Shown here: positions 5,655 through 61,536 of the stretch, piece after piece
Layout of the letters: every line of letters starts with the position of its first letter
How positions within the stretch are numbered: the stretch's first letter is position 1
NCBI GenBank assembly: GCA_016178595.1
Contig: JACOSY010000023.1
Span: 1 to 64,000, forward strand
DNA length: 64,000 nucleotides
Direction of reading: 5' to 3'
Origin: Ignavibacteria bacterium
GTDB taxonomy: Bacteria > Bacteroidota > Ignavibacteria > UBA10030 > SZUA-254
Notes under the pieces: model-generated
The model's input: only the letters and a program-made list of their open reading frames with translations
What the model was told of the DNA's origin: nothing
Databases searched by the model: none
Translations under genes and position numbers: made by a program

Positions 5655-6263
5655 TTGGCTCGACTCAAGAAACTCCCCCGCTCATTCTACCGTCGTCCAA
5701 CTCTCACGGTCGCAAAGGATCTGCTTGGCAAACACCTCGTTCGGAAACTAGGACGATCCACACTCATCGGCAAGATTATCGAAGTAGAAGCTTATCTTGG
5801 CGAGAAAGATCCCGCCAGTCACGCTTACCGAGGTCTCACCAAGCGCAATGAAGTCATGTTCAAGGAAGGCGGGCATCTTTATGTCTACTTCACCTATGGC
5901 ATGCACTACTGCTGCAATGTGGTAACGGAGAAAGAGGGAATCGGACACGCTGTTTTGTTGAGAGCCATTGAACCGATTGAAGGCATTGAGATGATGTGGA
6001 AGAACAGAAAATTCACAACGAATTTAACGGATGAAACGGATTATCGGATGCTGACGAACGGGCCGGCGAAACTGTGCCAGGCGTTTGGGATCAGAAAGAA
6101 TGAGAATGGAATCAATCTTCGCGGCAACCTTATTTTCCTTACGGAAGGCGAGAACATTTCACGCTCTTCGACCAGAGCGACGACACGCATCGGCATCACG
6201 GTGGGACGTGAGTTGCGATGGCGATTCTACATCAAGAGGAACCCATTCGTCTCGCGGAAGTAA
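5655..6263 (+). CDS. mpg: DNA-3-methyladenine glycosylase (AAG/MPG family)
   Basis: FYRRPTLTVAKDLLGKHLVRK, EVEAYLGEKDPASHAYRGLTKRNEVMF, YVYFTYGMHYCCNVV; TTG start. Confidence 0.93.
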   Translation: MARLKKLPRSFYRRPTLTVAKDLLGKHLVRKLGRSTLIGKIIEVEAYLGEKDPASHAYRGLTKRNEVMFKEGGHLYVYFTYGMHYCCNVVTEKEGIGHAVLLRAIEPIEGIEMMWKNRKFTTNLTDETDYRMLTNGPAKLCQAFGIRKNENGINLRGNLIFLTEGENISRSSTRATTRIGITVGRELRWRFYIKRNPFVSRK

Positions 6264-6276
6264 AGGCGACGACGTG

Positions 6277-6843
6277 CTAAGGAAGCTCTGCCTCTTCAAG
6301 TAACCGCTTCCAAATATCTGCAACGTGCAAGGTAGTCACCCATTCCCCGAGATAGTTTTTGTCGAGCGCGTCGTGCTGAACCTCATAAACCCGAAGTGCA
6401 TCTGTAAAGTGCTTTTCGCTCCCTCCAGACTTTTTCACCCATGCCAGTTTTGCCAGGATCGTATCTTCGGGTGCTGACACGTGCAGAACACTTCCGAACA
6501 GCTTCTCCGTCACACGCCGGGCAAATCGAGATCGATCGAAGGGCGTGTCCATCAATGTCCAAAAATCAACTTTATCCCCTTCGTCACTATCGATGAGATT
6601 GAACATACTTCTCGACTCGATCGCGGAGACGATGCTTGCCTCGTCGAGATGGAATCTGGGTGGTGGGAACGCTTCAGCCAACTGTCTTGCCGCTGACTTC
6701 GAAATTGCGACGACGATGTCGATATCGTGCGTTGACCGCGGCTCACCCTGCATGCTAGAGACCATTGATCCGGTGATCATGTATTGAATGTCATTCTCAA
6801 CGAGAACCTGAACGACGTTTCTCAATAGTTCCTGTTGTGGCAT
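6277..6843 (-). CDS. Nucleotidyltransferase-fold protein
   Basis: YMITGSMVSSMQGEPRSTHDIDIVV (GS...D.D motif), KVDFW, KLAWVKKSGGSEKHFTDALRV. Confidence 0.75.
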   Translation of the reverse strand: MPQQELLRNVVQVLVENDIQYMITGSMVSSMQGEPRSTHDIDIVVAISKSAARQLAEAFPPPRFHLDEASIVSAIESRSMFNLIDSDEGDKVDFWTLMDTPFDRSRFARRVTEKLFGSVLHVSAPEDTILAKLAWVKKSGGSEKHFTDALRVYEVQHDALDKNYLGEWVTTLHVADIWKRLLEEAELP

Positions 6844-40386: not shown

Positions 40387-40824
40387 TCAGGCTATGACTT
40401 CTTCTTTCGCATACTCAGGCGAGACAGGAGCGGGGGTCTTCATGATGTGCGGAATGGTTGGCTGTGGTTTGTCCCAATCCAGATCGCCTTTGACCCACAC
40501 ATAGGCATAGCCAACGCCGAGAATCGCGAGGAAAATCAACATCTCGATGAAGGCAAAGGCGCCAAGTTTCTGGTACACGAGCGCCCACGGAAAGAGAAAG
40601 ACAACTTCAACATCGAAGATTAGGAAAATGAGGGCAACAACATAGAATCGAATATTGAACTTTACCCAGGAATCTCCGACAGGCTCTTCACCGCATTCAT
40701 AAGAAGTCAGTTTATTGGGATACCAACGATGGGGACGGATAAGCCAGGCAGTAATCAGGCCGCCGGCGACGAATATTGCACCAACCAGGAAGAAGATGAA
40801 GACGCGTCCAAACTCTGTAAGCAT
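40387..40824 (-). CDS. nuoA: NADH-quinone oxidoreductase subunit A
   Basis: [40 protein letters not shown]. Confidence 0.95.
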
Positions 40825-41022
40825 GTATCTGTTGTGATGGAATACTGTGAGCGTATTCTTTTAGGCATGAGAATATAGAAAAAAGTTGTACGAAAGTCAA
40901 AAGAACGAAAAACAAAAACATTTTGCGAAAAGACCATGCCGAAGCGGGACGAAATCAGCGATGCGCGTTAATCAGAAGAATGTCTTGCCGAGATAAAAAT
41001 ATTTCACCAAAAAGAAATTTCC

Positions 41023-41051
41023 TTGACTTTTCAGCATTCTCTTATTATCTT
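41023..41051 (+). promoter_or_regulatory. Sigma70-like promoter TTGACT-N17-TATCTT
   Basis: Predicted TSS about 41056-41058 coincides with the first base of the hairpin stem at 41057. Confidence 0.6.
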
Positions 41052-41055
41052 ACGT

Positions 41056-41131
41056 GTGCATGAGGGCAGGACCCACGGTTTCCGACTTCGCCTCCCAAGT
41101 TGGAATACCACACCTGCCCCATGCATTTTTT
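41056..41131 (+). ncRNA. Candidate small hairpin RNA with C-rich loop and terminator-like U-tract
   Basis: TGCATG(a)GGGCAGG...CCTGCCCCATGCA outer stem, TTCCGACTT/AAGTTGGAA inner stem, loop CGCCTCCC, followed by TTTTTT. Confidence 0.6.
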
Positions 41132-41207
41132 ATGCCTTTCCTCTGTGGTCATATCATTCCACATGCGCTACGAAAAAACCCGTGATCGTTGCAGGGCTTT
41201 CTCCCAG

Positions 41208-41756
41208 TTATTGATCAGGATTCCATTTTGTTTCTGGAGTGTTGCTCACGGCATTGACCCAGCGCGCAAGCACGAACAAAAGATCCGAGAGACGATTGAG
41301 GTATTTGACCGGCATCTCCCCGATATCCTCGTCATGAGCGAGGCGGACAACCAGGCGCTCGGCCCGTCGACAGACCGTTCGCGTAAAATGGAGCATCGCC
41401 GCCGAGCGGTTTCCCCCGGGGAGGATGAAGTTCCTGAGCGGCTCAAGAGTAGTATCAATCCTGTCGATATGGCTTTCAAGACGTATCACTTCTCTTTCCC
41501 TCATTCGAATCACCGTTCTTTTTTCCTCTGATCGCGGTGTTGCGAGATCGGCGCCCAGCCTGAAAAGGTCATGTTGGATTTCATCCAGGATGCGGTCCAA
41601 CTCTTGCGTCGTGTTCATTGATCGACAGATGCCGATGACACTGTTGATCTCGTCAACCGTGCCGTATGCTTCAATCCGGAGGACATCTTTTGAAACTCGC
41701 GTTCCCCCGAAGAGCGACGTCTCACCTTTGTCGCCTGCCTTCGTATAGATTTTCAT
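41208..41756 (-). CDS. PduO-type ATP:cob(I)alamin adenosyltransferase
   Basis: MKIYTKAGDKGETSLFGGTRVSKDVLRIEAYGTVDEINSVIG. Confidence 0.94.
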   Translation of the reverse strand: MKIYTKAGDKGETSLFGGTRVSKDVLRIEAYGTVDEINSVIGICRSMNTTQELDRILDEIQHDLFRLGADLATPRSEEKRTVIRMREREVIRLESHIDRIDTTLEPLRNFILPGGNRSAAMLHFTRTVCRRAERLVVRLAHDEDIGEMPVKYLNRLSDLLFVLARWVNAVSNTPETKWNPDQ

Positions 41757-41889: not shown

Positions 41890-43155
41890 TTAGTAGAAGT
41901 CGCATGGGAAGCCGCGCACGATGGTTCCTCTCAGTCCAACCGCGACGAACCCTCTCGCGCTTCCTGCCGATTGAACGGCCATTAGAAAAGATCGTGTTAC
42001 CAAGGTTGAATGCGTCCACGTCACACCGCCATCTTTCGTTTGATAGAAAATTCCCGCTGAGCCAACGGCAACGCCAGACATAGTATCGAGAAAGCCGACA
42101 CCGTTAAGTTGTGACTCGCTGCTCGCAACAGGCGTCCATGTCTTTCCACCATCGCTGGTGTGAAGGATAACATCCGCACCAACGACAGCCCCATTCATCG
42201 AGTCGCTGAAAGCAAGACCGTAAAAGGACGTGCTAGTCGCAGTGATTTCCCTCGCCCACGACAAACCTCCGTCTGTTGTCTGGACGATCGTACCCCCTGT
42301 GCCAACAGCAATCCCTCTTTGCGCGTCGACAAATGCGAGAGCGGAGAGTTCTGCGGTAACTCCGGCATAAAAGCGCACCCAGTGGGTTCCATCGTCGAAG
42401 GTACGCAAAACGATCCCATGTTCGCCGACAATCACCCAGGTTGATCCTCCGAGAGAGACAACCGCCCTCAATCCGTTCGTGATCGCTGTCTGCAGCACAG
42501 TTGAAACTTGTCCGTCGTGAAGATAAAGAACGGTTGCATGATCTCCCACCATCATACAGTCTCCTGCCAAATTGAATGCGACACCGTGCAGGTCATAGGT
42601 AGTCGGACTTTCGATACTCTGCCATGTTGAGGCTCCGTCTGAGGTTCCAAGAATTGTACCATTTGCTCCGACCGCGATTCCGAGGTCAATTCCGCTGAAA
42701 GCCACACCATACAAATTGTCACTGGATTGGCGGGCAAGGAATATCAAGGAATCCGCCTCCGTGGTCGTCTGGGCAGGGTTGGATTCCGTTGATTGACCGA
42801 ACTGGTTGTAAGCATATATTTGGTACACATAGGTCGTTTGACATTGTAGTCCGGCATCGCGGTATAACCGAGCGAATCGAGGAAGAGAATCAATCGTTTG
42901 CCATTCTGTAGAATTTTGCTCTTTGCTAAGAAGCACATAGCCGCGAGCAAGGTGTGTGGTGTCCGACCATCTGAGGTCGATCTCGTGCGGCGAGATCGCA
43001 GTCGCAACAAAATTATTCGGCGGCAGCGGTAGTCGGGATGAAACACCTCCCCCGTTGTCGCCATTCTCTGTGGGAGCTTCTTGTTTACATGAAAGGGAAA
43101 GAAGAACGCCCAACAGGCAAACTAAAACTGCAAAGAAAGAGGATCGTGTCTTCAT
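41890..43155 (-). CDS. Lipoprotein with fibronectin III-like region and Ycf48/BNR-like beta-propeller
   Basis: MKTRSSFFAVLVCLLGVLLSLSCKQ; GVAFSGIDLGIAVGANGTILGTSDGASTWQ repeats; start adjusted to 43155. Confidence 0.8.
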   Translation of the reverse strand: MKTRSSFFAVLVCLLGVLLSLSCKQEAPTENGDNGGGVSSRLPLPPNNFVATAISPHEIDLRWSDTTHLARGYVLLSKEQNSTEWQTIDSLPRFARLYRDAGLQCQTTYVYQIYAYNQFGQSTESNPAQTTTEADSLIFLARQSSDNLYGVAFSGIDLGIAVGANGTILGTSDGASTWQSIESPTTYDLHGVAFNLAGDCMMVGDHATVLYLHDGQVSTVLQTAITNGLRAVVSLGGSTWVIVGEHGIVLRTFDDGTHWVRFYAGVTAELSALAFVDAQRGIAVGTGGTIVQTTDGGLSWAREITATSTSFYGLAFSDSMNGAVVGADVILHTSDGGKTWTPVASSESQLNGVGFLDTMSGVAVGSAGIFYQTKDGGVTWTHSTLVTRSFLMAVQSAGSARGFVAVGLRGTIVRGFPCDFY

Positions 43156-43301
43156 AGTTGTTACAATACACCTTTCGGCGAACTTTCGATTTTTGGCGCG
43201 GAGATTCGCTCTGCACAGCGTCGCCCTGTGCTGGTAACATGACTGCGGGGTATGGGAATACGAACTACTCATTAGAAGCCTGGAAGCAATGAGAATCCGG
43301 C

Positions 43302-58511: not shown

Positions 58512-61500
58512 CTACTTCAGCAGAATCATTTTCTTGATTTCCGTAAAGTGACCAGCCTCTAAACGGTAGAAATACATTCCACTGGAAAGGCTTGAGGCGT
58601 CAAAGGTGGCAGATTTGAATCCGGCTTGCTGCATTTCATCAACGAGTCGCATAACTTCCTGTCCGAGTACGTTGTAGATTCTCAACCTCACATGTGAATC
58701 TTCCGGGAGGTCATAATGAATTTCCGTAGTGGGATTGAACGGATTCGGGTAGTTCTGGTGTAAAGCGAAGTTGTGCGGCAGTAGCTTTTCAATGCCTTTG
58801 TCCGATTGTCTCTCCGTAAGTTGTGCCGGTGGGCAGGGCTGAGTAGCTTGTGCCTGAACGAGCAAAGTTCCATTGTCAGAACTTGCAATTGTCATTGAGC
58901 CTGTGCCGGTCATCTCCGTTCGTCCCGATCCGCCAGGTGCGATGAACCAGTACCGAGTCCCGTTGTTACGCTTGACATCCCACCTCAAGGTAAGCGGGTA
59001 CGGTGCCGACTTTACGGAGATGGGAAGATTGACAAATGCCTGTGTAGGAGGTACTGCCTCCATAAATTTACCTGACTGGAAGCGTGCGTTGAAAGCACCA
59101 GCGACAGGTTCAGGCGGCATTTCGTCATCGCTACTTAAGCCCGGCGCGATCGCGCGGCCACCGTTACGAACATAGAGTGCTTGACTCCGACTGGTTGCAT
59201 CGGTAACAGTCAAAACATCCATGGAACTGTAGACGGAATAGCTTCCGCCGCAGGGATCCGGTGGAGGCGCACTTGTCGTTCCGAAATTCCACACATCCGA
59301 CCATAAGCTTGTCCCTGCAGCGTTCTTTGCGTTGAGGCGCCAGTAGTATGTTGTGCTGTTTGCAAGTCCTGACACTTGACGAGACGTTGCTGTAATAGTC
59401 GAGTCATCCAGAGTCAGTATCCCGAAGCTTGAACTCGTCGATACTTGGAGTCTGTACCATGCCGCGCCAGACGAAGGGTTCCAACTAAGCGTGAGCGTTA
59501 CCGGCTGATTAGTTGCTCCATTGGAAGGCGCAAGAAGTGTCGGAGCAGGAGGCGGAGGATTTTGCGTATTTGTCGATCCCCCACCCGACGATGAAGTATC
59601 GAGCTTCAACATTCCAGAGTTGCTCACTTTCACCCAATAGCCTTTGCCAGGTCTGAGCGTATCGGTGGGAACGTAGCTGCTTCCGGAATACTCGAAGAAA
59701 TTGGAAATTACGCTTGTGTTCAGTGGCGTCACTTTAAGTTTTGACAGATTGTAAGAAATCGATCCTACTATATTCCATCCTGCGTCGACGTTGACCGTGA
59801 CCGATCCTCTGCGCTCACCGGCATAGTTCACAGTCTTGTTTGTGGCAAACTTCAACCAATAACCATAACCAACCGCTACTGTGTCCTTAGTAACGTACGT
59901 ACCGTTTCGAAATCCAAAAGCAGACGATTGAGCGTCAGGCCACAGCGTCACTTTCGCTGAGTCGAGAACTGCTTCGGGCAAACTTACCAAGTTCCATCCG
60001 CCCGCGACGGACGAGCTCATGGGATAGATGGGAAATCGTGCAATAAATGTCTGATAAGTTCCTCTTCGTGGATCCCACCAGTTCGGTATCACGTAATCTC
60101 CCGTGGTGGTCAGACCCATGTAATCACCAAAGTAACCATATGTACCGGGCACGTATGTTGTGACGAAGGCTGTATCGCTGATCGGATAGTTCTTGAATGT
60201 TTGACCGCCATCGACTGAATGTGCGAGTGTAACTCTGGTCAACAAATTGTTTGTCGGGTCGATTCGACTATCATAGAATGCTACATTCACTCCGCCGTAA
60301 GTGTCTACCTTTAGCCAGGGAAGAAATTGATCGGTCTGTGGACTCGAAACATCATCGTTTACTCGGATCGGCGAACTCCAAGTCGTACCTCCATCAGTCG
60401 ACTTCACAAGAAGTATATCAGGATAGAGACGTCGGACCGTATCAGAGGCATTGGCCCACACAATGTAAATCGTCCCACGATAGGAACCATTGCTACGATC
60501 TACGTCCATCACAGGAAAACTATTTCTGCGTATGAACGAGGTACTATCCGTACCTCTCTTGAAAAATCCCCGAATTGATGAAAAGTGTGGAATCGAAATC
60601 CTTTTTGGGCCAACCCAATTGTTACCCCCCATCAAGTGATTTATTAAACCCCAATGAATCATCCACTGGATTTAGGCTATAATGCCCTACATATACCCAA
60701 GTCGCATAGAGTTCTCCAGATGGTCCAGTTGATAAACACACACCTTGTGCAACGTAGTAACCTGAGGTACCGCTAATATTCTTCCAAGGGTAGGGAAAAC
60801 TCGCGGCACCATCAACAGATTTGGCAAAGCGAACTGGATTTATTCTCACCGTGTCACTCGCATCAGCATAGGTGAAATCCGTCCATCCCACGTAGATACT
60901 GTCTCGGTACGGGCTCGTTGAGTTGACATCAACGATTAAGTGCTCTTTGTCGGCATGGATGGCATCTGCCATGAACGGGTTCTCTCCCCACGTCTGTCCA
61001 TGATCAGTAGATTTACGCACAGATAGGTAGCCCCAACCAGAAATATAAAGACTACTGAAATAAGGGTTGCCGTTGTGGTCATACGCAACGGACGGATCGC
61101 TATCACCTCCAGAATATTCGCTCCTCAACGAATCCCCGCCTGTCCAATTCAGGCCCTGGTTGAGTGAGTAATAATAGCCTTCTCTTCCTATGGTTGGAAA
61201 TGGATAGCTTCTGGGTCGGATGGCATTTGCACCGCTCAACAGATTGTTGCTATTGGAGGGGTCGGCCTCAATAGAAATTTCTGTTTGATGAGTGACGGGA
61301 TTCGGACTGGGAAACAGAATGATGTTTTTGAATGGTGTCGGAGAAGGCACTAACACTGGCGGTGAAAAGACTTGAACCACCCTTCCGGTATCAATGCCAG
61401 GTGGTATGTAGTCTGTGGTCTTAAGCCAGCCTCCCTGGAACTGCCACGCGAATGCGCTTCCGGAACAGAGCAGAATAAGAGACACGATGATAACGAGACA

Positions 61501-61536
61501 ACAGGTATAGCGAGGCATGATCATATGCCCTCCCAA
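58512..61536 (-). pseudogene. T9SS-exported BNR/sialidase-like propeller + Fn3 protein, split by a frameshift at a G6 tract (60622..61536 and 58512..60662)
   Basis: Upstream ORF ends ...GFNKSLDGG*; downstream frame reads GGNNWVGPKRIS and ends with T9SS sorting domain ...LHQNYPNPFNPTTEIHYDLP...MILLK. Confidence 0.75.

Follow-up and report, generated by a model that had tools for sequence, protein, structure and literature searches.

The locus and its hairpin RNA gene

The gap upstream of nuoA in this Ignavibacteria genome (3.1 Mb in 61 contigs) raises the question of whether the hairpin found there belongs to a small RNA (sRNA) with a gene of its own, and what such an RNA might do. In the window, which is the whole analysed stretch of 64,000 nucleotides, the element occupies part of a 383-bp gap between nuoA (40387-40824, minus strand) and the gene of a PduO-type cobalamin adenosyltransferase (ATR; 41208-41756, minus strand). 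The sRNA is encoded on the plus strand and points away from the nuo operon and towards the ATR gene. It is a hairpin RNA gene of about 75 nt with its own promoter and terminator, and it adjoins the genes of respiratory complex I. Further along the minus strand (41890-43272) the window encodes a protein that combines fibronectin III with YCF48/PSII_BNR propeller domains; another propeller protein of this kind is encoded elsewhere in the same genome (locus L061, 6863-9121).

The promoter consists of the -35 element TTGACT (41023-41028) and the -10 element TATCTT (41046-41051), from which the transcription start is predicted at about 41057. All 12 nuoA-type homologues share this arrangement: the -35 box is TTGACT (TTGACA once), the spacing to the -10 element is exactly 17 nt, the -10 element follows the pattern TAT(C/A/T)(T/A)T (TACATT once), and the foot of the hairpin begins a few nucleotides downstream. 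The divergent nuo operon promoter, TTGACT-17-TATATT, is a neighbour outside the RNA (40872-40900, minus strand). It is conserved as TTGACTTTC-17-TATATT, with similar promoters upstream of nuoA in most relatives. Of the other 11 nuoA-type loci, 10 have elements of the same type upstream of nuoA on this opposite strand, where TTGACTTTC stands 16 or 17 nt from TATATT or TAAATT, with minor variants; one locus has no clear TTGAC. These suggest that TTGAC/TAtaTT may be the house promoter type of the clade, in place of the Bacteroides -33/-7 type. No strict TTGAC-N16-18-TAnnnT match was found in the regions upstream of 17 sampled tRNA genes, and therefore these genes gave no promoter yardstick and the nuoA promoters served instead.

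The predicted sRNA (41057-41132, plus strand) is a rod-like hairpin with a U tail, and the covariance model built for the family matches it. The 5' arm of the outer stem (41057-41070, with a bulged base at A63) pairs with the 3' arm (41113-41125), which doubles as the terminator stem and is directly followed by the U-tract TTTTTT (41126-41131); a T-rich run stands directly 3' of the stem in all homologues. An asymmetric internal loop separates the outer and inner stems. It reads ACCCAC/ACA in this genome, its 5' side (41071-41076) is nearly invariant in the alignments as A(C/U/A)CCAC, and it was absent from the first-pass annotation. The inner hairpin (33 nt, 41077-41109) has a nearly invariant sequence and, read on the plus strand, contains U.G and G.U wobble pairs; its stem (41080-41088 with 41097-41105) is extended by GGT/ACC across a one-base bulge. 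The apical loop CGCCTCCC (RNA CGCCUCCC; 41089-41096) contains UCCC, which is predicted to be largely unpaired (0.77-1.00 per base). The fold energy is -37.7 kcal/mol, compared with -21.2 +/- 3.2 kcal/mol for shuffled sequences (z = -5.2), and none of 200 shuffles was as stable.

The RNA is assigned to the plus strand because of the promoter, the U-tract and the wobble pairs, which on the opposite strand would turn into A-C mismatches. On the minus strand there is no T-run after the hairpin. A comparison of fold energies between the strands was not decisive, since the minus strand gave the better fold for one homologue and the difference was below 3 kcal/mol for several. The first-pass annotation had described TTGACT-N17-TATCTT, the stems of the rod, the loop and TTTTTT, and these are exact to the base. 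Its proposal of a plus-strand sRNA with its own promoter and intrinsic terminator is borne out by the fixed spacing and the U-tract of the homologues. The aligned loci show a gene with its own sigma-70-like promoter, a hairpin starting at the predicted start site, and an intrinsic terminator formed by the same hairpin and the U-tract.

Conservation of structure and sequence

A first MAFFT alignment of 11 sequences misregistered the outer stem and masked the covariation. The sequences were then aligned to a covariance model derived from a clean subset of them; pair counts from an alignment fitted in this way lean towards the model, and the unfitted subset alignment has four two-sided pairs as well. 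Two-sided changes were found in 8 of the 12 modelled pairs of the outer stem. Over the whole structure 98.8% of the cells are paired, none of 500 shuffles reached any of five measures, and sliding the partner by one base lowers the pairing to 41-48%. The covariation that the first-pass annotation had named as a check is thus present. That check had been confined to the upstream regions of orthologous nuoA genes, where a search would miss a relocated copy in one relative (G001, described below).

The inner hairpin behaves differently from the outer stem. Its 12 pairs show one-sided changes only, mostly to or from U.G and G.U wobbles; 99.2% of its cells are paired, and no pair has two-sided changes. 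The UCCC of the loop is unchanged in all 13 sequences, the diverged G001 copy among them. On the alignments, the outer stem is under selection as structure, and the inner hairpin, the loop and the internal loop as sequence. Chance is excluded by the conservation in 12 genomes together with the fixed promoter spacing and the compensatory changes. Judging from covariation and promoter conservation, the structure and the gene are almost certainly real.

Proposed function and candidate targets

The most likely function, with a probability of roughly 0.55, is that of a free-standing trans-acting sRNA whose UCCC loop captures Shine-Dalgarno (SD) sequences and blocks translation initiation without Hfq. 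The RNA would be transcribed from its own promoter; the exposed UCCC loop would pair with SD sequences such as GGGAG or GGAGG as the strands of the inner stem, weak and rich in wobbles, come apart; and this pairing on a set of mRNAs would block translation initiation independently of Hfq. The outer stem would serve both as terminator and as protection of the RNA. The anatomy fits the UCCC-loop design known from Firmicutes, and by this analogy SD blocking may be inferred. The genome makes use of SD sequences: AGGAG occurs 85 times at -20 to -6, with 7.8 expected, among 982 sampled genes, and the 16S tail GGATCACCTCCTTT carries the usual CCTCC, so that the anti-SD is CCUCC. Hfq was not detected in this genome.

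Pairing of a CCUCC loop with GGAGG sites had been proposed in the first-pass annotation. The invariance of the loop fits this proposal, but no conserved target emerged, and the exact loop complement GGGAGGCG is not enriched at gene starts, with none among the roughly 1,340 start regions sampled from 1.24 of the 3.1 Mb. GGGAGG was found 22 times at the sampled starts against 9.8 expected, an excess no larger than SD use would give, and loop-complement words in general showed no enrichment at gene starts beyond SD use. No target conserved between relatives was found in the 1.24-Mb sample and two follow-ups. These target tests are weak, because the gene starts in the sample were called crudely, as the first ATG or the first start codon of long open reading frames. 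GGGAG stands upstream of a possible start in 49 sampled genes; Pfam searches of ten of them revealed no common function.

Two single matches were rejected as targets. The best match to the complement of the sRNA covers 12 nt where a REP-type transposase gene starts and recurs in none of the relatives; an 11-bp match at the window gene 60625-61524 has no conserved orthologue set. The REP-type (Y1) transposase-like gene itself lies at 6080-6780 of locus L063 (about 70080-70780 of contig C7 of the same genome), and palindromes are repeated around it (GGTAGGACAGGTCTCC...GACCTGTCC and GGACAGAACGGGAGTTCTGTCC).

The next reading, possible although clearly less probable, is that the inner hairpin and the ACCCAC/ACA internal loop form a site that sequesters or guides an RNA-binding protein. 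About 33 nt of hairpin with tandem U.G/G.U pairs have hardly changed in sequence, in contrast to the freely drifting outer stem, and protein recognition would explain an invariant double-stranded inner stem no less well than seed pairing; the missing conserved mRNA target points the same way. However, known sponge RNAs carry repeated protein-binding sites, whereas each of the present RNAs would have a single one, and the UCCC loop matches a known target-recognition motif. Moreover, the same pattern of conservation was reported for IsrR, which blocks SD sequences (PMC9410917). A CsrA sponge in particular was dropped, as the alignment has no conserved GGA in a plus-strand loop.

Distribution and genomic neighbours

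Of the 15 genomes searched within this Ignavibacteria family, 12 carry a homologue of the sRNA: the window's genome, 10 genomes by BLAST and one more by the covariance model. An extra locus (L048) came from a public genome scan and is outside this count. The relatives carrying the element are public assemblies, mostly labelled Ignavibacteria, Ignavibacteriae or Ignavibacteriales, many of them from groundwater. Genus g4, which belongs to the same family, gave no match, and neither did the order's other families (the order search covered 98 genomes, with a more sensitive search of a subset) nor, this family aside, a set of 398 genomes drawn from the phylum; the large searches used strict filters, and very diverged copies could escape them. 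As far as searched, the sRNA therefore seems to be restricted to one Ignavibacteria family.

The neighbours of the sRNA bear on the idea of a cis element, namely an antisense or insulator element for transcripts running from the ATR gene into nuo, or regulation linked to the divergent nuo promoter. The sRNA adjoins nuoA, the ATR gene or both in 11 of the 12 genomes (in relative G010 the contig ends before nuoA), and the divergent promoters share a conserved intergenic region. Against this, the diverged copy in G001 adjoins a response-regulator gene away from nuoA, and the only nuoA relative found in that genome is a distant one with 42% identity. Genus g4 and the other families keep nuoA without the sRNA, their nuoA upstream regions having no such hairpin, and the loop and inner stem are conserved far beyond the needs of an antisense RNA. 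A cis role is thus unlikely. The G001 copy has the loop CUCUCCC, in which UCCC is retained; it has no TTGACT box, the nearest candidate being a TATAAT about 18 bases before the hairpin foot, and its promoter is uncertain. Because this copy sits away from nuoA, the element is regarded as a free-standing gene rather than a nuo leader, and its relocation argues that the RNA would act in trans rather than serve its usual neighbours as leader, attenuator or terminator.

That the hairpin is a mere (possibly bidirectional) terminator of the ATR gene beside a coincidental promoter is highly improbable: Ts do follow the hairpin on one strand, but that strand is not the one carrying the ATR gene, the minus strand has no T-run after the hairpin, and neither the 17-nt promoter spacing at 12 of 12 loci nor the invariant loop would serve a terminator.

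Identity of the RNA family

A diverged housekeeping RNA (SRP RNA or 6S RNA) or a small protein gene would agree with a single-copy, rod-like element under a strong promoter, but has an equally slight probability, as the element has no Rfam match at E<=10, the SRP RNA and, in three relatives, 6S-like RNAs lie elsewhere in the genome, and the homologues share no start or frame.

Rfam 15 gave no match in the window at the gathering thresholds; relaxing the limit to E<=10 yielded three weak matches in the 3.1-kb locus, none of them on the element. The first-pass annotation had named a strong Rfam hit to a different known element as one of the outcomes that would overturn it. The small SRP RNA (RF00169) was rejected, since that of the genome is on another contig (73 bits). 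RF00013 (6S RNA) has no match in the window's genome, and 6S RNA was rejected both for lack of an Rfam match on the element and for size, about 75 nt compared with a rod of about 180 nt with a large central bubble. The protein-coding reading was rejected on the missing common frame and start, in agreement with the earlier view that no open reading frame here is convincing.

Weak 6S-like RNAs occur elsewhere in three relatives that carry the sRNA (G001, G008 and G013). Sub-threshold 6S RNA matches (loci L164, L165, L166 and L167; 35-38 bits against a cut-off of 46 bits) come from four genomes, three in this family and one in another, and are probably genuine Ignavibacteria 6S RNAs that have diverged too far to pass the Rfam threshold.

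On these comparisons the element is a candidate for an undescribed RNA family, absent from Rfam 15, of a known kind, the free-standing intergenic sRNA. The evolutionary evidence for this family is strong, and a full-text search of a library of papers revealed none devoted to small RNAs in the class Ignavibacteria. Its anatomy is minimal, with one rod as both terminator and proposed regulator. More speculatively, and rather doubtfully, the RNA might be a lineage-specific global regulator in a family without detectable Hfq, a single minimal self-terminating hairpin whose whole 33-nt inner domain would be a recognition module, either bound by a new RNA-binding protein or capturing the SD sequences of a set of mRNAs. 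To our knowledge, such a one-hairpin design is known nowhere else in the wider Bacteroidota. The minimal anatomy and the C-rich loop together make it possible to test directly whether sRNAs that capture SD sequences arose outside Firmicutes in lineages lacking Hfq.

Comparison with known systems

The small SRP RNA and 6S RNA are likewise stable rod-like RNAs, whereas the present element matches the Rfam model of neither. Within the wider phylum, GibS of Bacteroides thetaiotaomicron is also an intergenic sRNA in a host without recognisable Hfq (PMC7366714). The mean GC content of sRNAs of this Bacteroides type is about 35%, and several of them seem to lack structure (PMC7366714); in contrast, the present RNA has a GC content of about 55% and folds into a closed rod, and its promoter is of the TTGACT/TATnnT type instead of the Bacteroides TTTG/TAnnTTTG type.

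The closest resemblance in design is to the C-rich-loop sRNAs of Firmicutes (RsaE/RoxS, FsrA, LhrC, SprD and IsrR). RNAIII, RsaE, SprD, FsrA and LhrC bind their targets through the UCCC motif, and UCCC-loop sRNAs of Firmicutes block SD sequences (PMC4132741). The present RNA shares with them the free-standing gene, the intrinsic terminator and a UCCC predicted to be single-stranded in a hairpin loop. The parallel with Gram-positive sRNAs drawn in the first-pass annotation holds for the loop but not for the host, which belongs to the Ignavibacteria (Bacteroidota in GTDB). The RNA differs further in having one C-rich loop instead of several and no match to an Rfam model. In IsrR the C-rich loops are held by stems conserved in primary sequence (PMC9410917), as is the stem around the loop here. 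LhrC does not require Hfq for its stability or for pairing with lapB (PMC4132741), and an Hfq-independent mode would also suit the present genome. What sets the Ignavibacteria RNA apart from these sRNAs is its single hairpin, in which terminator and loop are combined in one rod.
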